From positions 1 through 37,695 of the forward strand of contig CAJCBL010000031.1 in NCBI GenBank assembly GCA_903960515.1: a stretch of 37,695 bases of DNA, read 5' to 3'. The DNA is from an uncultured Verrucomicrobiota bacterium. Lineage in GTDB: Bacteria > Verrucomicrobiota > Verrucomicrobiia > Opitutales > Opitutaceae. Below are positions 23,164 to 36,942 of this stretch, piece by piece; the stretch's first letter is position 1, and every line of letters begins with the position of its first letter. The notes under the pieces are model-generated. The model ran no database searches and had not been told where the DNA came from. It saw only the letters and a list, made by a program, of their open reading frames with translations. The position numbers were made by a program, and so were the translations under genes.

Positions 23164-23934
23164 CTACGTGGAGCGCAGCCGGCGGCTGGCGATCAGGGCC
23201 AGCAAGGCCAGGGCCGCGCCAAGCCCGTAGGTGGCGGGCTCGGGGACGGGGGCGTCGTTCCAGTACGCGCCCGCCCTCACGGCGAAGACGAAGAGGGCGG
23301 GGTCGGCGGCCTCCCTGTATCGGGGGTCTTGGTGCTCGAAGGAGAGCACGGCGAAGGGCAGGTCGCTGGCACCGCCCACGCTGGCGAGCGGGGCCAGAGT
23401 GCCCCAGTAGCCGTCGCCCGGTGAGGCGCCGGGGGAGTTGAGCGAGTGGGTGAATGCGTAGTAGCGCTCGGTGCTGCCGGCTTCGGTGCGCTCCACGAAG
23501 AAGTCGAACGCATCGCGTTCGGTGGGCAAGGGCAGGGCGAAGCTGCCAAACTGGCGGTCGGCGCTGGAGCCGCTCAACAGGTGGTCGGTGCCGTTGTTGG
23601 TGTATCCGAACTGGCCCCAGCAGTCGCCAGTCTCACCGAGGAAGACCACCTCGCAGAAGAGTCCGTCTGTGATGCCCACGATAGGGCCGGGAAGGTTGGT
23701 GGGGGCCAGGTTGGGCACCCAGTTGCTCCAGGCCCGTTCGGTGTTGTCGATGTCGTGAGGAGTGGGGGACTCCTGGCCGGGGGCAACCTGCCCTGAGGCC
23801 GGATTGAGCGGGGCGAACCAGTTGAGGTAGTTGGTGAGTCGATCAGCGGCGGGTTCCTGGAGTTGGCCGAAGGCCGTGGAGGCCACCAGCAGTATCACTG
23901 GTGAGAGGACCGGGAGGGATTGGTACGTTTTCAT
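23164..23934 (-). CDS. PEP-CTERM exported protein
   Basis: The product is a 256-residue exported protein. A signal peptide occupies residues 1-22 (SLPVLSPVILLVASTAFGQ). The C-terminus is a textbook PEP-CTERM sorting signal: VPEPAT, a hydrophobic helix YGLGAALALLALIA and the basic end SRRLRST. In this system the tail is recognised and cleaved by exosortase, and the protein is released or anchored at the surface in exopolysaccharide-producing bacteria. The middle region is rich in Gly, Asn, Trp and aromatic residues and matches no family I recognise. ATG 23934 is chosen because it starts the signal peptide. Confidence 0.85.
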   Translation of the reverse strand: MKTYQSLPVLSPVILLVASTAFGQLQEPAADRLTNYLNWFAPLNPASGQVAPGQESPTPHDIDNTERAWSNWVPNLAPTNLPGPIVGITDGLFCEVVFLGETGDCWGQFGYTNNGTDHLLSGSSADRQFGSFALPLPTERDAFDFFVERTEAGSTERYYAFTHSLNSPGASPGDGYWGTLAPLASVGGASDLPFAVLSFEHQDPRYREAADPALFVFAVRAGAYWNDAPVPEPATYGLGAALALLALIASRRLRST

Positions 23935-24101
23935 AGGGGCCGGGTTTGGAGTGCATGGGGTGGGGCAGTGGATGGGGTGGGGTAAACGTGCCGGCACGGT
24001 GGGCGTTTGTTGTGGGGCAGCAAACTGGAGGGCGTGGATGAAATCTGTGGAAAACAGGGGTTGACAGGTCCTGAGGTGTCCGGTGTCCTCGGCAGCTTCT
24101 T

Positions 24102-24227
24102 ATGAAAGTTGTCTCGTCCCTGAAGTCCGCGAAGAAGCGTCACCCTGCCTGCCAGGTGGTTCGCCGCCGCGGTCGTCTCTACGTCATCAACAAGACCGAG
24201 CCGCGCTACAAGGCACGTCAAGGTTGA
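24102..24227 (+). CDS. rpmJ: Ribosomal protein bL36, zinc-free type
   Basis: The product is a 41-residue protein matching bL36 of the large ribosomal subunit. It begins [18 protein letters not shown] and ends with [12 protein letters not shown], the ending typical of the E. coli YkgO-type (type B) form. Only one cysteine remains and the zinc-binding CxxC pair is absent, so it is the zinc-independent (C-minus) type. The gene is followed 19 bp later by type B rpmE, as in zinc-responsive bL31/bL36 pairs. TTGACA at 24061-24066 could be a -35 element, but no good -10 follows, and no ribosome site is strong. Confidence 0.92.
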
Positions 24228-24246
24228 TCAAACCCATTTTTCCGCC

Positions 24247-24501
24247 GTGAAACCTGAAGGCCATCCCACCCTAAACAACGTCTGCTTTGTGGACGTTTCC
24301 ACCGGGCACAAGTTCCTCACCAAGTCCACGATGAAGTCCCTGCGCAAGGAGACCATCGATGGTGTCGAATACAACCTCGTGCTCCGCGACGTGACCTCGG
24401 ATTCGCATCCCGCCTACACCGGCGAGAAGCGCATGCTAGACATCGCCGGACGTATCGAGAAGTTTACCTCGAAGTTCAAGCGCGTTAACACCGCGAAGTA
24501 A
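24247..24501 (+). CDS. rpmE2: Ribosomal protein bL31, type B
   Basis: The product is an 84-residue bL31 of the longer type B. The family start KPEGHPTLNNVCFVDVSTGH, the central YNLVLRDVTSDSHPAYTGEK and the basic C-terminus GRIEKFTSKFK are diagnostic. The zinc-binding CxxC of type A proteins is missing. Start is GTG at 24247 or a nearby alternative. The gene forms a pair with the bL36 gene and is closed by a strong terminator 24 bp downstream. Confidence 0.94.
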   Translation: MKPEGHPTLNNVCFVDVSTGHKFLTKSTMKSLRKETIDGVEYNLVLRDVTSDSHPAYTGEKRMLDIAGRIEKFTSKFKRVNTAK

Positions 24502-24792: not shown

Positions 24793-25869
24793 GTGTCTCC
24801 TGTGCTGAGCCTGTCCGATCTTTCCCTCGAAGATTTCACCGCCCGCGTCGAAGCGTGGGGCGGGAGGCCGGTGCATGCGCGGCAAATCCTGCGCAGCTTC
24901 TACGCCGGCGACGGCGCGGTGGCCTGGGGCGAGTTCGAGTTGCCGCGCGCTCTGCGGGGGCGCATCGAGGCGGAGTGCCGGGTGGCCCCCGCCCAGATCG
25001 CCGTACGCCAGGTGGCCGACGACGGCACGGCCAAGCTGTTGTTACGTTTCGAGGACGGGCGCACCGTCGAGTCGGTGTTGATGCCCGACTGGCAGGGGGA
25101 GCGGGCGGCGGGCTGTGTGTCCTCCCAAGTCGGTTGCGCGATGGGCTGCGACTTCTGTGCCACGGCGCAGGGCGGTTTTGCGCGCAACCTCTGCTCCGGC
25201 GAGATCGTGGACCAGTTTTTCGCGCTGCGGCGCGAGGCGAAGGCTGCCGGGCGCAAGCTGCAGACCCTCGTGTTCATGGGCATGGGGGAGCCGCTGCTCA
25301 ACCTCGACAACGTGGTGGCCGCAGCATGCCGGATCGCGGCCAACGACCTAGGGGCCCTCGGGCGCAAGCAGATCACGGTATCCACCGTGGGCCTTGTGCC
25401 GGGGATCCAGGCACTGACGGCGAGCGGCCTGGGTGTGAGCCTGGCGGTGTCCTTGCACGCCCCCGACGATGCCACTCGCGCCCGCATTTTGCCGGCGGGC
25501 CGGCGCCACGCGGTGGCGGAGATTCTGGCCGCTGCCGATGCCCACCAGGCTGCCACGGGGCGGATCACGACGATCCAATATTGCCTGCTCGCCGGGGTGA
25601 ACGACTCGCTCGCCCAGGCCCGAGCCCTCGCGGATGTGCTGGAGGGGCGGCGGATGCATGTGAATTTGTTGCGCTACAACCCGACCGGCCCCGGCCTATC
25701 GGGCTTCGACTATCGCCCGCCGGAGATGGCGGGCATCGAGGAGTTTCTGGTGGAGTTGCGGGGGCGGGGAGTGGTGGCGCATTTCCGCCGGCCTCGAGGC
25801 GAGGGCATCGATGCCGCTTGCGGCCAGTTGCGTGGGAAGGTCGAACGTCCGGGGCGCAGCCTAAGCTGA
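24793..25869 (+). CDS. rlmN: 23S rRNA/tRNA adenine-C2 methyltransferase RlmN
   Basis: The product is a 358-residue radical SAM enzyme that methylates C2 of A2503 in 23S rRNA and A37 in some tRNAs. The CxxxCxxC iron-sulfur motif is C115, C119, C122 (GCAMGCDFCATA), and the catalytic cysteine at C343 (AACGQL) is retained. Other family blocks are FMGMGEPLLN, SLHAPDD and the YNP segment. The N-terminal SLEDFTARVEAWGGRPVHAR agrees with RlmN. I placed the start at GTG 24793 (TTG 24790 is equally possible) because upstream sequence is repeat-derived and non-coding, although the frame is open to 24649. Confidence 0.95.
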   Translation: MSPVLSLSDLSLEDFTARVEAWGGRPVHARQILRSFYAGDGAVAWGEFELPRALRGRIEAECRVAPAQIAVRQVADDGTAKLLLRFEDGRTVESVLMPDWQGERAAGCVSSQVGCAMGCDFCATAQGGFARNLCSGEIVDQFFALRREAKAAGRKLQTLVFMGMGEPLLNLDNVVAAACRIAANDLGALGRKQITVSTVGLVPGIQALTASGLGVSLAVSLHAPDDATRARILPAGRRHAVAEILAAADAHQAATGRITTIQYCLLAGVNDSLAQARALADVLEGRRMHVNLLRYNPTGPGLSGFDYRPPEMAGIEEFLVELRGRGVVAHFRRPRGEGIDAACGQLRGKVERPGRSLS

Positions 25870-25910
25870 GCCGTGACTATTCAAGTGTAAGGGCGTGCGT
25901 GCGCCCGATT
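25869..25910. repeat. REP-like element at the left border of the defence region
   Basis: AGCCGTGACTATTCAAGTGT followed by GGGCGTGCGTGCGCCC aligns with the 50-89 segment (AGCCGTGCCTATTCAGGCGT then the REP core). The inner GGGCG/CGCCC can pair. It lies between rlmN and the exonuclease VII genes, where base composition changes. Confidence 0.5.
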
Positions 25911-25997
25911 CCGAGTGGCGTCCGAGATGAAACGAATTGCGCGCCCGAGTTGGCGCGTGCTTGCGCTCGACAAGGCTTTATTGAAAGCCAAGTGGGC

Positions 25998-26192
25998 TTA
26001 GGCTTCGGGGCCGAAGCGATCAGCCAACATCAGCTTCACGGCATCCAGGCGCTCTTTGCAGATCTTATATGATTTCAGCGCGCTATCCACCTGGGGGATG
26101 AGTTGATCGATATCCGGCTCACCTTGCGTGCGCATCACTTCCGCGATCGTCCGCAGGTTGTCGTAGTGGCTCTTGAATGTTTCTGTCGACAT
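25998..26192 (-). CDS. xseB: Exonuclease VII small subunit-like protein
   Basis: The product is a 64-residue helical protein matching the small subunit of exonuclease VII. In place of the usual LEEIVRRLE...LEESLALYEEG pattern it has LRTIAEVMRTQG, DIDQLIPQVDSALKSYKICK and ERLDAVKLML, so helix order and spacing are kept. Several small subunits wrap around each large subunit in the known enzyme. The gene begins 17 bp after the stop of the xseA-like gene on the same strand, which strongly supports the pairing. ATG 26192. Confidence 0.75.
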   Translation of the reverse strand: MSTETFKSHYDNLRTIAEVMRTQGEPDIDQLIPQVDSALKSYKICKERLDAVKLMLADRFGPEA

Positions 26193-26209
26193 GATGATGT
26201 TTGCCTCGC

Positions 26210-27853
26210 CTATTCTATGGTTGCGCCAACGTTGCCGTCGGCAAATTGAAGTTGGATGTGCGCCCCTGTGCCAAGTTGATTCTTCCGTGTTGCCGGCTTC
26301 CCGTCGCGATTGCGCGCGATCACAAAACCGCGCTGCAGCGTCTTTTCAGGACCCAGCCCCAGTACATATTCGGCCGAAGCGGTGAGGTGGGTGCCCATGG
26401 TTCTGGTGGCGAGAACCGAACGATCCCTGATGAGTTCAAGCCGGCCGGTTGCAGCGGTTGCGGCTTTGTCTATATCATTGAGCGAAGCTTCGCGTATACG
26501 GGCTGCGACATCCGCGACATCCTTGCCTGCTCGGGCGCAATCGCGGTAGGAGCCATCGCGAATCAAAAGCCTATGGTCCTCGATCGAAATTGTGGCCACG
26601 GCCACGTCTTTCGTGGCGTTGCTGTGAATGGTTTGCAGCGAATCTCTGATGCGGTCGCCGACTCTCGTGGCGGCGCTGTCTGCACCTGAACGAACCGCAT
26701 ATACGTCGGAGTCGATAGCTTTTTGCGAGGCTTCGATCCGGGCGAGCGAACAGTCCTTGAGCAGGGGGATATCCCGTTCCAGGCTGGCCAAGGCGAGTTC
26801 GACGACGTGCCTGGTGTCGGCAGTGATAGAGCGGTGGTTGTTGGCGGTTGTCTCGGCCGCCTTGCTCAGTAGGTGGCGTGCCGCGGTGCGAATAGAGTCA
26901 TGGGCATGTTCGAGTTCCTGCGAAAACGATTTCCGGGTGTTGTCGGCTCCGGAAAGGATGAAATCAAAGGCGGTCTGTGCAGCCTGGGCACCTTGTTTGA
27001 TGCAGTCGTATATGTAGCCGATGGCCTTGGATGGAGTGTGGAAACTCATGCCGGCGATCTCGTCGAGTATACCCTTATCGCGCTCGTGCCCTACGGCGAC
27101 CAAGACGGGGATTTTCATCTTCGAAACCGCATCGGCAATGGCGTAATCATTGAGCCACGCGAGGTCGGCTTGGCTACCGCCGCCCCTGAGAATGATCACG
27201 GCATCGAAAGGAGTGGCGGTATTTTCGCGATAGACCGTTCGCAACGCGCCGACTATTTCGGACGATGCGCGCTCGCCTTGAAATAGGGCCGTCAAATAGC
27301 GGAAGCGGCATAGCCCCGCCTTTTCGAGCGGGTCCGCATGGCTGCGGAAATCGCCAGCCCCGGCGGCATCCCCAGGGGCGATGATGGCTACGCTGGTGAA
27401 GTCGGTAGGGGGAGGCAGCAGGCGCTGCCGTTCATATGAGCCTTCTTCTATGAGGCGCTTCCTGAGTTCGATGAGCTTTCTCGCGGCCGCGCCGAGGGTG
27501 AAAGTCGGATCGATGTCCTCAATGGAGGCCTGTAAGCCAAATAGTGGATGCAGGGAGGGGCGGATTTGGACCAGGATTTTGAGTCCTTTGCGCAAGGTCT
27601 CACCGCCAGTTGCTTCGGTAAAACGGGAATAGAGCAGCGCCTTGCGATCGGCCCAGATCTTTGCACTCAATTTGGCAACCAATTCGCCATTGGCACCGGT
27701 TTCGATCAGGGAGACAAATGCGTGCGTATCGCCACGTACCTCCGCTATCTCTGCGGCGACCCATTTTGGTTGAGCTACAGAATTGACCGCGCTCCTGAGT
27801 GGGGCGATAAAGGCCGAGAGGGAGAGGTGTTCCGTAGTGGCGTGGTCAGCCAT
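26210..27853 (-). CDS. xseA: Divergent exonuclease VII large subunit
   Basis: The product is a 547-residue XseA homologue; housekeeping forms are usually about 400-460. An N-terminal OB-fold region (about 10-118, WVAAEIAEVRGDTHAFVSLI) is followed by the nuclease domain, with ILRGGGSQADLAWLND (221-236, including the conserved Arg in RGGGS) and VGHERDKGILDEIA (254-267, keeping H256 and D259 of the canonical GHETD). HTPSKA replaces the usual APTPSAA. A long helical region (about 285-490) and the C-terminal module (LQRGFVIARNRDGKP) complete it. ExoVII degrades single-stranded DNA from both ends. It sits divergently next to Wadjet, away from usual isoprenoid-pathway neighbours, so it is read as an accessory copy. 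Confidence 0.85.
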   Translation of the reverse strand: MADHATTEHLSLSAFIAPLRSAVNSVAQPKWVAAEIAEVRGDTHAFVSLIETGANGELVAKLSAKIWADRKALLYSRFTEATGGETLRKGLKILVQIRPSLHPLFGLQASIEDIDPTFTLGAAARKLIELRKRLIEEGSYERQRLLPPPTDFTSVAIIAPGDAAGAGDFRSHADPLEKAGLCRFRYLTALFQGERASSEIVGALRTVYRENTATPFDAVIILRGGGSQADLAWLNDYAIADAVSKMKIPVLVAVGHERDKGILDEIAGMSFHTPSKAIGYIYDCIKQGAQAAQTAFDFILSGADNTRKSFSQELEHAHDSIRTAARHLLSKAAETTANNHRSITADTRHVVELALASLERDIPLLKDCSLARIEASQKAIDSDVYAVRSGADSAATRVGDRIRDSLQTIHSNATKDVAVATISIEDHRLLIRDGSYRDCARAGKDVADVAARIREASLNDIDKAATAATGRLELIRDRSVLATRTMGTHLTASAEYVLGLGPEKTLQRGFVIARNRDGKPATRKNQLGTGAHIQLQFADGNVGATIE

Positions 27854-28292
27854 ATTGAGCCCGAAAATTAAGCGGTGCGGAGATGTGATGTTGTCCCCTC
27901 CTGAAGTGGGCGGAGGGGCCGCGCGGAAAATGCTGCCGGCGATTTGAAGGCAATGGCCGCCTGGAACGCAAGCTCAACCGCCCGCTTGTGGTAGCCGCGT
28001 TCGTAACAAGGTGCCGCCGAAGCGCGAGTAATTCCGGGTGGCGTTCAAGATCAGACCAATGTCGATCCCGTGAGCGTGCTTGCACGCGAAGACTATCCAC
28101 CGCGAAATCCCTTAGAGGTCACTGGATCGAACCGCGCACACGCTCGTCACCTGAAATCGCTCCGCACCTGCCCACGACTAGCTTGCCTTTGGCGTGGCCG
28201 CAGGTAGAAACCACTGTCGATTTTTGTCCCGCACCGTAATCCCATTTCTGCAATCCGTTTCAACGTAGCCCCATTCTTCACCTCGGTTCGCT
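27854..28292. other. Divergent control region between ExoVII and Wadjet genes
   Basis: These 439 bp separate the start of the xseA-like gene (minus) from the start of jetA (plus) and must hold the promoters of both. An inverted repeat CCCCTCC/GGAGGGG lies at 27895-27901 and 27912-27918, about 42 bp from the xseA start, and could be an operator. A single REP core is at 28072-28089. I could not identify a -35/-10 pair with confidence. A short minus-strand open frame in the region lacks coding character. Confidence 0.45.
28072..28089. repeat. REP core, single copy
   Basis: GAGCGTGCTTGCACGCGA is identical to the core of the perfect hairpin at 66-124, without the second half. It lies in the ExoVII/Wadjet divergent region. 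Confidence 0.7.
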
Positions 28293-29750
28293 ATGCCCAC
28301 CGCAATTGACAGCCTGTACCAAGCCTCGCTCATATTGCGTTTGCTGTGCGCAAAGAATGCTCCGCTGGTGCTGGGGTTTTTCCATGAGGCGTTCAAGGAG
28401 CGCAATCAGCACTCCATCGCGGAGGAGGAGCTGGAGTTGCTACTCGACAGGCATTTGGCCGAGCACGTGGTGCCCGATGGTGAGATGCCGGCTGAAAACA
28501 GGGCCAAGAGCTATCTGAACCTCTGGTGCAGCGATGGCTATTGCTATATACGGAAGCGTTTCGATGAGGAGCAGCAATGCTTTGTCTATCAGCTCACGCG
28601 CCACAGCGAGAAGGCGCTCCAGTGGCTGCACGAGCTCATGACAGGAGAGAAGCTCGCGCATACAACTACCGAGTCCCGGTTCAGCCGGATATTTAGCGAG
28701 ATGCAGATGCTCGCCCAGCAGACCAAGGAGGATCCGCAGGCGAGGCTGCGCACCCTGCTCGCCCAGCGGGAGATAATTGATGCCGAAATCATGGACGTCC
28801 GGGCCACGGGCAGGGTGAAAACCCTCGAGCCAACCCAGGTCAAGGATCGGCTTATCGACCTCGAACAAATGGTTGAGGCCTTCTTGGCGGATTTCCGCTC
28901 CATCGAAGATCGTTTCAAGGAACAGGCCTCCGAGATTCATGAAATATACCTCGAACGCGGACGCTCCAAGGGAGATATAGTCGCCCACGCGCTTGATGCC
29001 GACGACTCCCTGCGCAACTCCGAGCAGGGGAAGAGCTACTATGGCTTCCGCGCGCTGATCCGCTCGATGGAGAGCCGGGAGGCCCTGGCCCGCGCGATTG
29101 ATGATGTAGCCAAACTGGCCGCGCAGGCCGGACTGGGAGATCGCGTTTTCGTGACTTTGATGGAGCGCCTCCTTCTTCAGGTGACGGTTGTGCAAGAGAG
29201 TTATCAGAAGATTGCAGGCCAGCTTCGCCGCGTGGTGGAGGAGTCTGTATCCCAGGACTCGCACCTGCTCATGGAGTGGATTGCGGAGATCAAGCAGCGG
29301 GCACTGGCCTTGCGGGACAATCCGCCCATCGCGGATGAAGAGGGGACGTTTATACAAGTCGATGAGGGCATCGCCTGGGCCAACCTCATGGAGGTTGGTT
29401 TCCACGAAAAGAAGGATACGAGCCGCTTTAGTCCCGTGCAGACCGAGGGTGAGGACGACACTGACGATGTGAAGAGCGCACTCCGGAAGATCGGAAAGCC
29501 GCTCGACCTTGAAGGGTATAGAAGGAAGATTATTGGGCTGCTTGAGACACGCGAGCAGGTCGCGCTCAAGCAGGTGTTGGCCCAATATCCATTGGAAGAC
29601 GGGGCGGTGGATCTGGTCGGCTACCTCTGCGTGGCGGCCGAGAACGCGCACCACCTCATCGACGAGCAAGAGCAGGAGGAGATCGATCTTAACCGCCCCA
29701 AGCAACCGCGCTTCGCCACCATGAACCGCATCATATTCCAGCGCGCATGA
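28293..29750 (+). CDS. jetA: Wadjet protein JetA (MksF/kleisin-like, DUF3375)
   Basis: The product is a 485-residue protein, first gene of a four-gene operon. It matches the DUF3375/JetA family by overall character and position: a largely helical N-terminal winged-helix-like half (LRLLCAKNAPLVLGFFHEAF; YLNLWCSDGYCYIRKRFDEE), the segment HTTTESRFSRIFSEMQMLAQ, a long coiled region about 190-330 (REIIDAEIMDVRATGRVKTL), and a C-terminal helical end. In Wadjet the JetA kleisin-like subunit bridges the JetC heads and binds JetB. No catalytic motif is expected or seen. The stop overlaps the jetB start in ATGA. ATG 28293 has no strong ribosome site. Confidence 0.9.
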   Translation: MPTAIDSLYQASLILRLLCAKNAPLVLGFFHEAFKERNQHSIAEEELELLLDRHLAEHVVPDGEMPAENRAKSYLNLWCSDGYCYIRKRFDEEQQCFVYQLTRHSEKALQWLHELMTGEKLAHTTTESRFSRIFSEMQMLAQQTKEDPQARLRTLLAQREIIDAEIMDVRATGRVKTLEPTQVKDRLIDLEQMVEAFLADFRSIEDRFKEQASEIHEIYLERGRSKGDIVAHALDADDSLRNSEQGKSYYGFRALIRSMESREALARAIDDVAKLAAQAGLGDRVFVTLMERLLLQVTVVQESYQKIAGQLRRVVEESVSQDSHLLMEWIAEIKQRALALRDNPPIADEEGTFIQVDEGIAWANLMEVGFHEKKDTSRFSPVQTEGEDDTDDVKSALRKIGKPLDLEGYRRKIIGLLETREQVALKQVLAQYPLEDGAVDLVGYLCVAAENAHHLIDEQEQEEIDLNRPKQPRFATMNRIIFQRA

Positions 29751-30379
29751 GTGCCAAAATTGATTATCGTCACGTCCTTGCCCGGTTGGCCACCGGCCCA
29801 ATATATGAGAATGATTCCGATCATTGGCTCATGCTCAAGGCGGAGGTGGAGCGGGTGCGCACGCACTATGCTGATATGGGGTTGGAGGTAGTGGTGGATG
29901 AGTCGGGCGGGTATGCCTACCTCCGGCAAAAGCCCGAGGAGAGCGAAGAGGCGTGGACTCCGGATGGGGTGGCTCCGATCCCCCGCATCCTCCGGCGCAC
30001 CCAGCTCAGTTACCACCAAACGGTTTTCCTGCTGCTCCTGCGTGAGCGCCTTCTTCGCCATGAGCAATGCCCGGATGCGGAGACTGCGCTCTACCTCGAT
30101 CTCAGCGACATCACCGAGATGCTACGCCCCTATTTCCCGGAGTCGAACAACGAGAAGAAGCTCTACGACAGCGTGCAATCATTGCTGCGTCGCTTCGATA
30201 TTTTGAACCTGATTTTTCCGATGAAGAATCGCAGCGATGCAATATACCGGGTGGAGCCGATCATAAAGGCCAAACTGCCGGCGGGATTGATCGCCGAAAT
30301 CCGCACCCGCCTGGCGGGAGAACTCAAGACCGAAACCGCGCCCACCACTACCGATGCCAACGGATCAAGCAGTACTTGA
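29747..30379 (+). CDS. jetB: Wadjet protein JetB (MksE/KITE-like, DUF4194)
   Basis: The product is a 210-residue protein of the DUF4194/JetB type, a small winged-helix (KITE) partner of the kleisin-like JetA. Landmarks are GGYAYLRQKPEESEEAW, PRILRRTQLSYHQTVFLLLL, and the helical segment LYDSVQSLLRRFDILNLIFP. The last 15 residues are Thr/Ser/Asn-rich. Start ATG 29747 overlaps the jetA stop by four bases. Its 3' end overlaps the jetC start by 26 bp (30354-30379), so translation of all three is coupled. Confidence 0.9.
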   Translation: MSAKIDYRHVLARLATGPIYENDSDHWLMLKAEVERVRTHYADMGLEVVVDESGGYAYLRQKPEESEEAWTPDGVAPIPRILRRTQLSYHQTVFLLLLRERLLRHEQCPDAETALYLDLSDITEMLRPYFPESNNEKKLYDSVQSLLRRFDILNLIFPMKNRSDAIYRVEPIIKAKLPAGLIAEIRTRLAGELKTETAPTTTDANGSSST

Positions 30380-33300
30380 ATTTTTCCCCGACGCGGACAC
30401 TGCGGGTTTCCGCCTGCACGAGTTGGGTGTGTTGAATTGGGGCACCTTCCATGGAAAGCCCTTCGTGGTGCGCCCCGAGGGCCGCACTGCAATCCTCACG
30501 GGCGGAAATGGCACCGGCAAGTCGACGCTTGCCGATGCCCTGCTCACGCTGCTCGTACCCAATACGCGCAGAAACTACAACCAAGCAGGCCAAACCCAGA
30601 AGAAGAGCGAGCGCAACGAGCGCGACTATGTGCTGGGTGCCTATTCGGAGAAGCACGACGAGAGCATTGGAGAGGGGCGCAAGCAGTATCTGCGCAAAGA
30701 CGCCGGAAGTTACTCGGTGCTGCTCGCCACCTTCAACAACGAGGGAATGAACTCGTGGGTGACGCTGGCGCAGGTGCTATGGATCAACACGGCCAACAAG
30801 GTGGACAAGCTCTTCATTGCCGAGCCGCGGAGGCTCTCAATCGAGGGGGACTTCAACTACCTTGAGGCGCCCTCCACGATAAGGCGTATCCTCAAGGACC
30901 GTGGCTTTTCCTGTCTCGATTCCTTCACCGCATATTCGGAAAAGTTCCACGACATGCTCTGCATGCCGAAGGACAAGACGCCGATGGCGATATTCAACCA
31001 GGCTATTTGCATCAAGGACATCGGAGATCTCACTTCATTTATCCGGGAGCACATGCTCGATGATGGCGGAGCATTGGAGAAACTCCAGGGCCTGCGGAAG
31101 AACTTCACAGAGCTTCGCGAGACCAATCGGCGCATTGAATTGGCGACAAAGCAGCTCGATGCCCTGAACCTCATCAATAATGACCATGAAGTGCTGGTCG
31201 TATTGCAGCGGGACCTGGACGACCTCCATTTTCGCGAGCAGGTGCTTGTGCCCTATTTTGCGGAGCGGGAGCTGGAACTGCGCAAGGAACTTGCTGAGCA
31301 ACAGGCGATTCAGCGGAGCACGCTGGACACGAGGCGGATGGCAGTGACAACAAGCATCGGGTTGCTCCACGGGAAGGTGAAGTCCATCGAAGAGTCGTTG
31401 GAAAGAAGCGATGAGGGGAGACGGTTGAAAGAAATAGAGAGGGCTGTGGCGTTGAATAGCACGCTGCGTGAGGAGCGTAAGAAGAAACGCGCGGCTTTCG
31501 ATGTGCAGCGTGAATGTTGGAGTCCCGGCCAGCAGGTATTCGATGCGACCACCCACGGACAGCTCCTCTACCAGTGCGGGCAGGAAGCCCCGGTCTTGAA
31601 GGGGAGGGTGGAGCGGATCGACAAGGTGGATGTACGCAACCGGGTCGTAGAGGAGGACCATGTTTCGACAAAGCGCAACGAGTTGGAGAAAGAACAGAAA
31701 TCGTTGCTTGAGCGCACGAGCAATATTCCCGAGCACTGCCTGCGGGCCCGGGCCTATTTACTGGATGAGCTTCGCTTGAAGCCCGAGGATCTGCCGTTTG
31801 TTGGCGAGTTGGTTCAGGTGAAATCTACCGACAACCAGTGGACTGGGGCGATCGAGCGGCTGATGCATAGTTTTGCCCTATGTATGGTAGTTCGTCGGGA
31901 TTTGCGGGAACGGGTGGACGGCTTTGTTCACTCCCATCGCCAGAAGGGGCTCGTAGTATATCACGCAGTGCCGGAGCAGATTGGCGCTGTGAATCCCCAC
32001 TTGGATGAGAGCGCGGTCGCACGCAAAGTGGAGTTGAAGGCAGGGCTCGGTGAGCTGGGGCACTGGCTGGAGGTGGAGATCAGCCACCGCTTTGATCACC
32101 TCTGCTGCCCCGACACCGGACCGGGGTTTCGTGAAGCTTCCAACGCGCTCACACTGATGGGCCTCATCAAGCATAAAGGCACAGAGCGCAGAAAGGACGA
32201 TCGAAGCGCCCTTGGCGATGCATCGAACTTCGTGCTGGGGTGGAACAATCGCGAGAAGCTCGTCGCTATAGGCGCGGAGTTGAAGGGGTTGGAATCCCGA
32301 TTACTGACTATCAGAAAGGAGATCGGCGAACTCGAAGAGGAGCAGGCCCTGCTCACTCGGCGAATCAATGCGGGCGATAAACTCGCCATGTTCTACGCTT
32401 CCTACACAGATATAGATTGGCAGATCATAGCGAAGGAAATCGCAGATCTTGAAGTCGAGCAGACCAAGCTCAAGACGGGGTCGGACACGTTGAAACAATT
32501 GGCCAAGGAGAAAACCGCAACTGAACTCGCACTGAAGGAGGCCCAGGCAGAGGAGAAACGCCTGATCGGAGAGGCGGCGGTATTGGAGGACAAGACCAAG
32601 GGCAATGTCGCAGCCAAAATGAAGATGGAGGAGGTGATCAAGTCCGTGGATCAAGTGGCTGCCCAGGATTCCAAGTTCGCTGATTTCAGAGCACAGTATC
32701 CGGCTATCACTGCCTCGCTGGCTTTCCCCTTGACCGACCTCGCCAAATTGTCCGATGCAAGAACCGACGCCGGTGAGGCGATCAAGCGAAAGCGGGCTGT
32801 CACCAATGAGAGCTTTGGCGAGCGTACGCAGCGCATAAAGCGGCGTATGGAGCAGTTCGTCGCGTTCGCGGAGAACATCGAATTCAGGGATCGACTCGCG
32901 GGAGACTATGCGGTGCCGGGCTACAACGCGTCCATCCATGCTCCCTTCGAGGGCGTGCGGAATCAGTTGATCAAGGAGGACTTGCCGAAAAATCAGCACC
33001 GTTTTGAAACCCTGCTGCATTCGACGGTCACCGACGATGTATCGGTGTTTGACGAGTTGCTGGTTCGGCACGCCAAACGTATCGAGGTAAAGATCCAGGA
33101 ACTGAACCAACAGTTGCGGAAGATCGAATTTGATCGGCGCGACAAGACGTATATTCAGTTGGTACCCAATCGCACCGACGAGGCCGCGGTGAAGGAATTT
33201 CGAAATTATATGCGCAACGCTCTTCAGGACTCGCTCAACGCGGGAACCGAGAGGGAGGCGTTGAAGGAGCGATATCACCGGATCGAGCACCTGCTGAACA

Positions 33301-33764
33301 AGCTCGACGAGAATCCCGAATGGACCGGCCGAGTGGTCGATGTGCGCAACTGGTTCAACTTTCGTGCGGAGGAGAGCTTCCGCGCGGATGACACCCACAA
33401 ACAGAGCTATTCGGGGGCTTCGGGCAAGTCGGGAGGGGAGAAGAACCGCCTGGCCTCGACCATCCTTGCAACGTCGATTGCCTATCAATATGGGATTTCG
33501 GTGGACAATAAACATACCGAGACCTTCCGCTTGGTGGCGGTGGATGAGATGTTCAGCAAGACGGACGACGAGTTCTCGGAATATCTTTTGGAGCTCTTCA
33601 AGGAGTTCCATCTGCAATTGCTCGTCATTCAGCCCCTGGATGCCAAAATCCACCTGGTGCAAAAATATGTCGAGCGCTACCATATCGTGACCAAGCGCGG
33701 CGCGAACTCCTCGGTGCGCACGCTCACGGTGAAGGAGTATAAGGAGCTGCGCAACGAGCCATGA
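30354..33764 (+). CDS. jetC: Wadjet SMC-like ATPase JetC (MksB-like)
   Basis: The product is a 1136-residue SMC/Rad50-class ATPase. Walker A is GGNGTGKST at 50-58, after the typical LHELGVLNWGTFHGKPFVV start. The middle, about 250-950, is long coiled coil around a hinge-like region about 470-620 (RLKPEDLPFVGELVQVKSTD, AIERLMHSFALCMVVRRDLR). The C-terminal head has the ABC signature in SGASGKSGGEKNRLA (SGGE at 1026-1029) and Walker B FRLVAVDE (D1064, E1065). All ATPase residues are present. In Wadjet, JetABC extrudes DNA loops and selects small circular DNA for cleavage by JetD. It overlaps jetB by 26 bp and jetD by ATGA. Confidence 0.95.
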   Translation: MPTDQAVLEFFPDADTAGFRLHELGVLNWGTFHGKPFVVRPEGRTAILTGGNGTGKSTLADALLTLLVPNTRRNYNQAGQTQKKSERNERDYVLGAYSEKHDESIGEGRKQYLRKDAGSYSVLLATFNNEGMNSWVTLAQVLWINTANKVDKLFIAEPRRLSIEGDFNYLEAPSTIRRILKDRGFSCLDSFTAYSEKFHDMLCMPKDKTPMAIFNQAICIKDIGDLTSFIREHMLDDGGALEKLQGLRKNFTELRETNRRIELATKQLDALNLINNDHEVLVVLQRDLDDLHFREQVLVPYFAERELELRKELAEQQAIQRSTLDTRRMAVTTSIGLLHGKVKSIEESLERSDEGRRLKEIERAVALNSTLREERKKKRAAFDVQRECWSPGQQVFDATTHGQLLYQCGQEAPVLKGRVERIDKVDVRNRVVEEDHVSTKRNELEKEQKSLLERTSNIPEHCLRARAYLLDELRLKPEDLPFVGELVQVKSTDNQWTGAIERLMHSFALCMVVRRDLRERVDGFVHSHRQKGLVVYHAVPEQIGAVNPHLDESAVARKVELKAGLGELGHWLEVEISHRFDHLCCPDTGPGFREASNALTLMGLIKHKGTERRKDDRSALGDASNFVLGWNNREKLVAIGAELKGLESRLLTIRKEIGELEEEQALLTRRINAGDKLAMFYASYTDIDWQIIAKEIADLEVEQTKLKTGSDTLKQLAKEKTATELALKEAQAEEKRLIGEAAVLEDKTKGNVAAKMKMEEVIKSVDQVAAQDSKFADFRAQYPAITASLAFPLTDLAKLSDARTDAGEAIKRKRAVTNESFGERTQRIKRRMEQFVAFAENIEFRDRLAGDYAVPGYNASIHAPFEGVRNQLIKEDLPKNQHRFETLLHSTVTDDVSVFDELLVRHAKRIEVKIQELNQQLRKIEFDRRDKTYIQLVPNRTDEAAVKEFRNYMRNALQDSLNAGTEREALKERYHRIEHLLNKLDENPEWTGRVVDVRNWFNFRAEESFRADDTHKQSYSGASGKSGGEKNRLASTILATSIAYQYGISVDNKHTETFRLVAVDEMFSKTDDEFSEYLLELFKEFHLQLLVIQPLDAKIHLVQKYVERYHIVTKRGANSSVRTLTVKEYKELRNEP

Positions 33765-34933
33765 TCGACGCGGAGGCACTAAGAAAGCAGGCGGCCAATA
33801 AATATCCTGAGGTGGTCGAGGCACTATTGCGCGGAGAGAATCCCTTCCCGGTCAAGCTGCGCTACGCCCGGATCAAGACGACGGACGCCCGCGACTCGAT
33901 CTTGCGGGATATCGCGACGCTAACGGCGGAGAGTCGCGAGCAACTCGGACATGGGCTCACTGTAGAGTGGATGGAGATCAATACGCTGAAGTATGGGCGG
34001 AACCGAATCCCGGACGCCATTACTATAGCCACAGAGGAGGACTTTGTAGGTTATGTCGGAAAATGTTCCGAACTGAGCACCATACGCCTGGGGGCCGAAA
34101 CACTGGTGACGGCTTTCCCTGGGGTGCGCGCACAGATCCCTGGGCTGTGGCGAGTGTTGCGGGACGGATCACAAGAGTATTGGCAACAAGTGGTTAAGGT
34201 ATTGGAGTTTTTCCGGGCGCAGCCGTTCCCCGACCGCTATATTCGGGAGCTGCCGGTGGCGGTGCCTACCAAGTTTATCGAAGACAACTGCGTCTTGTTG
34301 GAAAGGCTGATCCGGGTGGTGGCTCCTCTTTCGTGGAGGGAAGGCGAGGAGACCTTCGAGGAGCGGCTCGGGCTGAAGACGCCGGATGCGTTGATCGAAT
34401 GTCGGCTGCTCGATGACGAATTGCTGCCTGCGTGGCGATTCCGGCAATTCACGGTCGGGCTAAATGACCTCAAACATCTGGATGAGCTGCCGGCCCACAC
34501 GGTAATCATAACCGAGAATCGGACCAACTTCCTCACTTTGCCGCCTGCGGCGAAGACGATCGCACTTCAGGGACACGGCTATGCCGTGAGCCGCCTGCGC
34601 CGCGCGCCATTTTTGAAGGCGAAGCGGATTCTATATTGGGGAGACCTCGACGAGCATGGCTTTGAAATCCTGGCCGTGCTCAGGCGGGAATTCGGGCACG
34701 CAGAGAGCTTGATGATGGATGCGGGCACTTGGGAGCAGTTTGCTGGCTTCAGGGTAGCCGGGGTTCACAGTCGCAATCCGGCGGAGCAGTTCCTGCCCTA
34801 CTTGAGACCTGAAGAGGCCGAGCTGTTTAAGATCATCGCATCCTTGGATAGGCGCTTGGAGCAGGAGCGAATTCCCCAGGACTATGTGAACCGCCAGATT
34901 TCGAAAATGCTGTGTTCGGCCCCGGAATTATAG
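33761..34933 (+). CDS. jetD: Wadjet nuclease JetD (toprim, DUF3322/DUF2220)
   Basis: The product is a 390-residue protein with the JetD layout. The N-terminal half (DUF3322) holds PFPVKLRYARIKTTDARDSI and the central YIRELPVAVPTKFIEDN. The C-terminal toprim domain carries TENRTNFLTLP (E252) and YWGDLDEHGFEIL (D295, D297), the metal-binding triad shared with topoisomerase VI/Spo11, and ends with ERIPQDYVNRQI. JetD is the nuclease that cuts both strands of captured plasmid DNA. All three acidic residues are intact, so the system looks functional. Start ATG 33761 overlaps the jetC stop by four bases. No gene follows for 580 bp. Confidence 0.95.
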   Translation: MIDAEALRKQAANKYPEVVEALLRGENPFPVKLRYARIKTTDARDSILRDIATLTAESREQLGHGLTVEWMEINTLKYGRNRIPDAITIATEEDFVGYVGKCSELSTIRLGAETLVTAFPGVRAQIPGLWRVLRDGSQEYWQQVVKVLEFFRAQPFPDRYIRELPVAVPTKFIEDNCVLLERLIRVVAPLSWREGEETFEERLGLKTPDALIECRLLDDELLPAWRFRQFTVGLNDLKHLDELPAHTVIITENRTNFLTLPPAAKTIALQGHGYAVSRLRRAPFLKAKRILYWGDLDEHGFEILAVLRREFGHAESLMMDAGTWEQFAGFRVAGVHSRNPAEQFLPYLRPEEAELFKIIASLDRRLEQERIPQDYVNRQISKMLCSAPEL

Positions 34934-35514: not shown

Positions 35515-36942
35515 TTGAAGATCTACTTTATGGGGATTTGCGGCACGGCCATGGGCAACGCCGCCCTTCTGCTGCGGCAGGCCGGCCATGAGGTGAGCGG
35601 CGCCGACACCGGCGTGTATCCGCCGATGAGCACAGTGCTGGCCGAGGCCGGCATCGCGATCCACGAGGGGTACGACCCCGAACGTCTCCGCAAACTGGCG
35701 CCGGACCTGGTGGTGATCGGCAACGCCATGTCGCGCGGCAATCCCGAGGTGGAGTGGCTGCTCGACACCCGGGCCATTCTCTTCACTTCCCTGCCGGGCC
35801 TGCTGCACGAGCAGGTGCTGCGCACCCGGCGCAACATCGTCGTCTGCGGTACGCATGGGAAAACCACTACCACAGCCCTCGCCGCCTTCCTCTTGCGCGA
35901 GGCGGCGGCGGATCCGGGCTGGCTGATCGGCGGCGTGCCGCTCGATCCGCCCACCGGCACCCACCTGGGGGCCGCCGACGGGCCCTTTGTCATCGAGGGC
36001 GACGAGTACGACAGCGCGTTCTTCGACAAGCGTAGCAAGTTCATCCACTACGCACCGCGCATCGCCGTACTCAACAACCTGGAGTTCGACCACGCCGACA
36101 TCTTCCGCGACCTGGTGGACATCCAGCGCACCTTCTCGCACCTCGTGCGCATCGTGCCTCGCAGCGGGCATGTGGTGCTTAATGGCGACGATCTCAACCT
36201 GCGCGCCCTTGGCTCCATGCCGTGGACACAGGTCGTGCGCGTGGGCCTCGAACCGGGCAACGACGTGGTGCTGCGCGACTTTGTCGAGACGCCCGCCGGC
36301 ACCTCCTTTGTCCTCACTTGGGGCGGGCGGGAATGGGCGCGCATCGCCTGGTCGCTGCCCGGCCTTTTCAACGCCCGCAATGCCGCGATGGCCGCCACCG
36401 CCGTCGCTCTGCTGCTCCATCCGCAGGACCCGACCAAGCTCGACCTCAGCGCGTTTGCGCGCTTCCGCGGGGTAAAGCGTCGCCAGGAAGTCCTGCACTC
36501 CTCGCCTGCGCTCACCGTGATTGAGGACTTCGGACACCATCCTACGGCGCTGCACGAGACGCTCACCTCGCTGCGTGCCCGCTTTCCCGGACACACGCTC
36601 ACGGCGGTATTCGAGCCGCGCAGCAACACCGCACGCACAAAGGTGCTGCAGGGTGGGTTCAGCCGTGCGCTGGCCGAGGCCGACGAGGTCTACCTCGGGG
36701 CGGTGAACCGGGCCGAAAAGCTTGCGGAGGGCGAGCGCTTCGATTCCGAGGCGGTGGTGCAGCATCTGGCGACGGCCAATGTGCAGGGGCGCTATTTCTC
36801 CAAGAACTCCGATCTGCTCTCCGCGCTCCAGCAGGCGACGCTGCCCGCACAGGGCCGGCCGCGCGTGGTGGTGTTCTTCTCGAACGGTTCGTTCGATGGA
36901 GCTATCGCCGCCTACGCCCAAGCCGCGAAGGCGTCGGCCTGA
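35515..36942 (+). CDS. mpl: UDP-N-acetylmuramate:L-Ala-gamma-D-Glu-meso-DAP ligase
   Basis: The product is a 475-residue Mur-ligase family enzyme of usual Mpl length (about 450-490). It joins the tripeptide L-Ala-D-Glu-meso-DAP, recovered from turnover, to UDP-MurNAc for peptidoglycan recycling. The N-terminal nucleotide-sugar motif GICGTAMG is at 7-14, the ATP loop GTHGKTTT at 112-119, then EGDEYDSAFFDKRSKF, NNLEFDHADIF, and DFGHHPTA with FEPRSNTARTKV, which separate Mpl from MurC. The start is TTG 35515, chosen because MKIYFMGICG is the family N-terminus; GGAAAGG lies 11 bases upstream. Confidence 0.94.
   Translation: MKIYFMGICGTAMGNAALLLRQAGHEVSGADTGVYPPMSTVLAEAGIAIHEGYDPERLRKLAPDLVVIGNAMSRGNPEVEWLLDTRAILFTSLPGLLHEQVLRTRRNIVVCGTHGKTTTTALAAFLLREAAADPGWLIGGVPLDPPTGTHLGAADGPFVIEGDEYDSAFFDKRSKFIHYAPRIAVLNNLEFDHADIFRDLVDIQRTFSHLVRIVPRSGHVVLNGDDLNLRALGSMPWTQVVRVGLEPGNDVVLRDFVETPAGTSFVLTWGGREWARIAWSLPGLFNARNAAMAATAVALLLHPQDPTKLDLSAFARFRGVKRRQEVLHSSPALTVIEDFGHHPTALHETLTSLRARFPGHTLTAVFEPRSNTARTKVLQGGFSRALAEADEVYLGAVNRAEKLAEGERFDSEAVVQHLATANVQGRYFSKNSDLLSALQQATLPAQGRPRVVVFFSNGSFDGAIAAYAQAAKASA

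Follow-up and report, generated by a model that had tools for sequence, protein, structure and literature searches.

The window analysed here, a stretch of 37,695 nucleotides from an uncultured Verrucomicrobiota bacterium, carries a gene pair for exonuclease VII of a mobile type beside a complete type I Wadjet operon. Our preferred reading, to which we assign a probability of about 0.78, is that the exonuclease genes were acquired horizontally and that the Wadjet operon is independent of them, the two cassettes lying side by side in foreign-looking DNA. The enzyme would thus be a neighbour of the Wadjet system and not one of its components.

The locus is made up of two cassettes with intact reading frames. 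On the reverse strand lie a small-subunit gene of the xseB_Acin_var type (xseB-like, 25998–26192, 64 aa) and the gene for a divergent large subunit, xseA (26210–27853, 547 aa). A divergent intergenic stretch of 439 bases (27854–28292) separates them from jetABCD on the forward strand (28293–34933). The earlier note had described this head-to-head arrangement within a lower-GC block, and family models and base composition bear out both the description and its coordinates. In 1-kb windows, the GC content of the block is 0.557–0.597 against 0.65–0.69 just outside, with one exception at 23501–24500, where it drops to 0.606. The same trend is seen at third codon positions, with GC3 values of 0.65–0.74 in the six block genes and 0.84–0.89 in five adjoining genes measured; miaA, which is more distant from the block, has a GC3 of 0.77. 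No sigma-70-like match was found in positions 25800–28400, where 1.1 would be expected by chance.

The Wadjet operon is complete, with its genes in the order A-B-C-D and their ends overlapping. More specifically, it consists of jetA (DUF3375; 28293–29750, 485 aa; PDLC00457, E 5.3e-93; PF11855, 288.2 bits), jetB (DUF4194; 29747–30379, 210 aa; PDLC00487, E 5.5e-41), jetC, encoding an SMC-like ATPase (30354–33764, 1136 aa; PDLC00512, E 2.1e-273), and jetD, encoding the nuclease (33761–34933, 390 aa; PDLC00522, E 1.9e-102). All four proteins find their best PADLOC matches in type I models, and the domains of the JetC ATPase (AAA_29, SbcC_Walker_B) and the JetD nuclease (JetD_C, 132.5 bits) score over their cut-offs. 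Type I Wadjet extrudes and cuts small closed-circular plasmids. Compared with this system, the operon itself shows no difference, and only its neighbour is unusual. The nearest Jet operon, on contig 238 of genome G158, is 54–64% identical to that of the window. It starts about 590 bases from the contig end, which leaves its upstream side out of view; G158 has one XseA.

The identity of the neighbouring pair was established with family models and a residue tally. XseA scores 164.5 bits with Pfam Exonuc_VII_L (PF02601, cut-off 35.9), 213 bits with NCBIfam xseA (TIGR00237, cut-off 180) and 29.7 bits with the tRNA_anti_2 OB-fold (cut-off 27). The small subunit reaches 79.1 bits with NF045605 xseB_Acin_var (cut-off 40). 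With an XseA over its curated cut-off, an adjoining XseB and the residues D168, R223, H256 and D259 all retained, the pair is an exonuclease VII; we take these four residues to be catalytic. The pair shares with known exonuclease VII (PF02601/TIGR00237 with PF02609/TIGR01280; large-subunit structure 8txr, presumably from E. coli) the order of OB-fold and Exonuc_VII_L domain, the D/R/H/D residues and the adjoining small-subunit gene. It differs in two respects: its clade carries GHE-R-D and TPS-K motifs where the 17 housekeeping copies compared have GHE-I/T-D and TPS-A/G, and its XseB remains below both general cut-offs (PF02609, 19.2 of 24 bits; TIGR01280, 24 of 35 bits). The window XseAB most likely acts as an ordinary exonuclease VII.

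Relatives of the window XseA are numerous. A scan of genome contigs, queried with exact peptide patterns of this one protein, returned at least 80 loci with relatives that are 29–48% identical in their best segment, and 76 of the 80 loci listed have titles naming Pseudomonadota. We built a tree from 29 relatives, 11 housekeeping copies of the window's phylum and 8 housekeeping-type copies from variant-bearing Pseudomonadota genomes. The window protein and the variant set fall on one side of a branch with a support of 100/100. In a larger, quicker tree, from which rows shorter than 400 or of at least 700 residues were omitted, three rows were placed outside the variant clade (L076, L079 and L080; two Bacteroidota and one Planctomycetota). 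XseB lies directly downstream of XseA in 70 of the 80 loci listed, and the small subunit of the clade is already modelled by NCBI as xseB_Acin_var.

Residues were tallied in 88 relatives, comprising 79 of the 80 loci and 9 plasmid and phage stretches, with fragments and the three outlying rows included; L084 had no usable XseA. The arginine, histidine and second aspartate of the active site are present in all 88 and the first aspartate in 86, the remaining two being gaps. The earlier note had taken the altered GHERD and HTPSKA motifs as a sign of divergence. The alterations are real, but since relatives share GHE-R/K-D (85/88) and TPS-K (83/88), they are mostly signatures of the whole clade and not decay. 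All 17 housekeeping copies carry I or T at the variable site of the first motif and A or G at that of the second.

The window pair resembles the NF045605 clade of Acinetobacter plasmids, Burkholderiales and others in its XseB score, in the position of its XseA within the 100/100 clade and in the XseB gene directly downstream. It differs in host phylum, in its jet genes adjoining and in its distance from other members, the nearest relative being about 37% identical. This low best identity, together with a long branch, indicates a sub-lineage (the window copy with B. vietnamiensis pBVIE01, REEB80 and REEB109) that is hardly sampled, a point that weighs against our preferred reading. In a phylum sample of 387 genomes, NF045605 scored over its cut-off in one, the window's own. 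Furthermore, the window XseA lacks the DUF5710-like N-terminal stretch that a loose motif pattern detects in 58 of the 88 relatives, among them L081 (9704–11425) and L201; the domain was confirmed by Pfam in the one relative tested, L081.

Members of the clade are found on plasmids and in variable parts of chromosomes in Pseudomonadota. XseA matched 143 of 72,556 plasmid records (E 1e-5), a number that includes Halorubrum, Sinorhizobium and other records that may lie outside the clade, as well as three Acinetobacter records larger than 3.6 Mb. Genes of this kind are also noted briefly for Acinetobacter plasmids in passages of two papers (PMC5571222; PMC3882262). Carriage by phages is weakly supported. 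Among 50,697 phage records, 40 matched XseA, in each case over less than 80% of the query; in Moraxella phage Mcat6 the match coincides with no annotated gene, and the neighbouring genes on an Acinetobacter contig labelled as phage, proC and a P-type ATPase among them, are of bacterial type. When viral contigs were scanned once with the XseA protein, 11 pattern matches came up, none of which was confirmed as a relative. In 28 variant genomes hand-picked from the 80 loci, the mobile-type gene is mostly a second copy, as 20 have an additional, high-scoring PF02601 match above 240 bits (ordinary XseA) and one (G434) has fragments. The other seven carry the variant with no second XseA seen over the cut-off (G411, G412, G413, G418, G419, G423 and G437; loci L005, L007, L009, L021, L022, L035 and L068). 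Here the ordinary XseA may have given way to the mobile type, or the assemblies may be incomplete.

We then consider what surrounds variant xseAB in other genomes. Repair-type genes in the 13 plasmid stretches opened include UmuDC (2), YebG (2), UvrA (1), SSB (1) and a 5'-3' exonuclease (1); the two plasmids with UmuDC are related to each other, and so are the two with YebG. On the former, both from Acinetobacter, variant xseAB and the UmuDC-type polymerase pair have a tail-to-tail arrangement (L203, 7992–11346; L223, 5301–8655), which hints at an SOS-linked repair cassette. Further plasmid neighbours are a UvrD-type helicase, methylases, HipA and transposases, with content varying between plasmids. 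No recurrent neighbour was found on chromosomes either, where the commonest Pfam family among the 140 nearest neighbours, RES, occurs three times. Because neighbours vary and no family is seen more than three times, the evidence speaks for an autonomous gene pair that processes single-stranded DNA and travels with mobile elements. A stand-alone function of the clade in defence or in DNA maintenance is also conceivable.

An alternative, which we regard as unlikely, casts the XseAB clade as a defence element in its own right that degrades incoming single-stranded DNA of conjugation or phages and is found here because islands collect defence genes. In Pelomonas sp. Root405, a CBASS-type nucleotide cyclase with a SMODS domain (L071, 8616–9539) lies directly upstream of variant xseA. 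Single matches to Zorya II, Bil, SIR2 and SAVED models were also seen near xseA, and stretches of three plasmids contain methylase or restriction genes. However, defence models (Ham, Kwa, Qat, CARF) are equally visible farther off, and the lack of a recurrent neighbour also speaks against this alternative. For 140 genes within 906 bases of xseA (the closest of 318 cluster representatives of 100–700 aa) and a random 140 lying more than 6.5 kb away, the numbers of PADLOC families matched were 70 and 80, respectively, with no clear near/far difference; the gene calls behind this comparison came from a simple frame score, some of them in wrong frames, and it covers the first 25 families per list. 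XseA and XseB themselves match no PADLOC family at E values up to 1.

The association with Wadjet suggested in the earlier note did not extend beyond the window in the samples taken. When JetA, JetB, JetC and JetD of the window served as phmmer queries, the 80 related loci yielded no Jet homologue, and profiles combining the window sequences with those of the phylum Jet loci (12 sequences each for JetA, JetB and JetC, 10 for JetD) likewise found nothing in these loci, in the 13 plasmid stretches or in the two phage stretches opened. The JetA profile recovered 35 of 37 positive-control loci. The flanks read across the 80 loci amount to 1,252 kb and reach 9 kb on both sides in 42 loci and 5 kb in 49, so that enrichment of homologues next to jet genes is absent over this range. 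From the opposite direction, PF11855 scored over its cut-off in 10 genomes of the 387-genome phylum sample, and none of the 11 other type I Jet loci of the phylum (9 genomes, stretches of 7.6–19.9 kb) contains a variant XseA. Of 300 genomes from the order that includes Polaromonas glacialis, drawn alike for both models, 3 score over the cut-off of NF045605 and 41 over that of PF11855, with no genome in both groups, leaving the small subunit in 0 of 41 JetA genomes. PF11855 is over its cut-off in 4 of the 28 variant genomes, three times on other contigs and once about 350 kb away. Compared with the background of 41/300, this corresponds to an odds ratio of 1.05 (Fisher p 1.0); the two sets are not quite alike taxonomically, and at least two genomes belong to both. 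A JetC relative is present on 17 plasmids, all of them absent from the best 40 of the 143 XseA plasmids. The Wadjet pairing is therefore one isolated instance that the samples taken do not support statistically and, with the relatives examined not lying beside Wadjet, looks like a coincidence in foreign-looking DNA. A literature search found no paper pairing Wadjet with the gene name xseA.

These counts bear on the reading that XseAB is a lineage-specific Wadjet helper, degrading ends or single strands after the JetD cut and strengthening restriction in this lineage only. The head-to-head position with a gap of 439 bases, the common low-GC block and the intactness of both cassettes fit such a helper. 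Nonetheless, no second case was found among the 80 relatives, the 11 phylum Jet loci, the 41 JetA genomes in 300 and the 28 variant genomes. In addition, xseAB and jetABCD lie on opposite strands and are thus not one operon. We consider a dedicated helper very unlikely. Very unlikely, too, is a combined scheme, in which mobile-type XseAB is a stand-alone plasmid or island system (a second exonuclease VII that has a dedicated small subunit and often an added DUF5710 domain) controlling the single-stranded DNA of mobile elements and was recruited in this lineage to finish DNA linearised by Wadjet.

The genome itself shows that the window pair is accessory. The assembly, in which the window lies on contig 31, consists of 379 contigs and is 96.8% complete with a contamination estimate of 2.2. 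A search with PF02601 found a second, housekeeping XseA on contig 211, which in the trees groups with two copies of the same genus, while the window XseA stands apart from it in the variant clade. Each of 16 other phylum genomes tested, two of them of the same genus, has one XseA over the cut-off, and in one of the 16 (G053) an additional match scores under this limit. The earlier view of the window XseA as an accessory gene outside the vertical lineage is upheld by these results. That it could be the divergent housekeeping exonuclease VII of the organism, as its score over the xseA equivalog cut-off and the seven variant-only genomes might suggest, is refuted for this genome by the separate XseA grouping with the genus, unless contamination accounts for either of the two contigs.

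The flanking genes are a radical SAM gene (24850–25869), which we take to be rlmN-like, and a Mur ligase gene (35515–36942), presumably mpl-like. In relatives, 14 ligase-side and 5 rlmN-side stretches, some as short as 3.3 kb, each lack the other flanking gene; the ligase probe was a reverse-strand ORF, which still located the ligase region in 14 of 14 ligase stretches. As the two genes are never together in the stretches read, the site is rearranged and no empty site can be demonstrated. Nor did the 20 largest of 47 direct-repeat families in 24–36 kb reveal convincing terminal repeats near 25.9 and 35.0 kb. The case for acquisition consequently rests on composition and the tree, from which we infer that XseAB arrived by horizontal transfer. 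As the two cassettes are alike in composition, they could also have been acquired together.

Under our preferred reading of an acquired exonuclease beside an independent operon, the Wadjet cassette would act independently against small closed-circular plasmids. The other cassette would supply an accessory two-subunit exonuclease VII from a mobile Pseudomonadota clade, in which small XseB subunits would bind XseA and the conserved D, R, H and D residues would trim single-stranded DNA ends. It may originally have helped the mobile element carrying xseAB to repair damage or to replicate. These findings keep the enzyme from being listed wrongly among the Wadjet components and bring to attention a separate mobile-type exonuclease VII clade that has a small subunit of its own.
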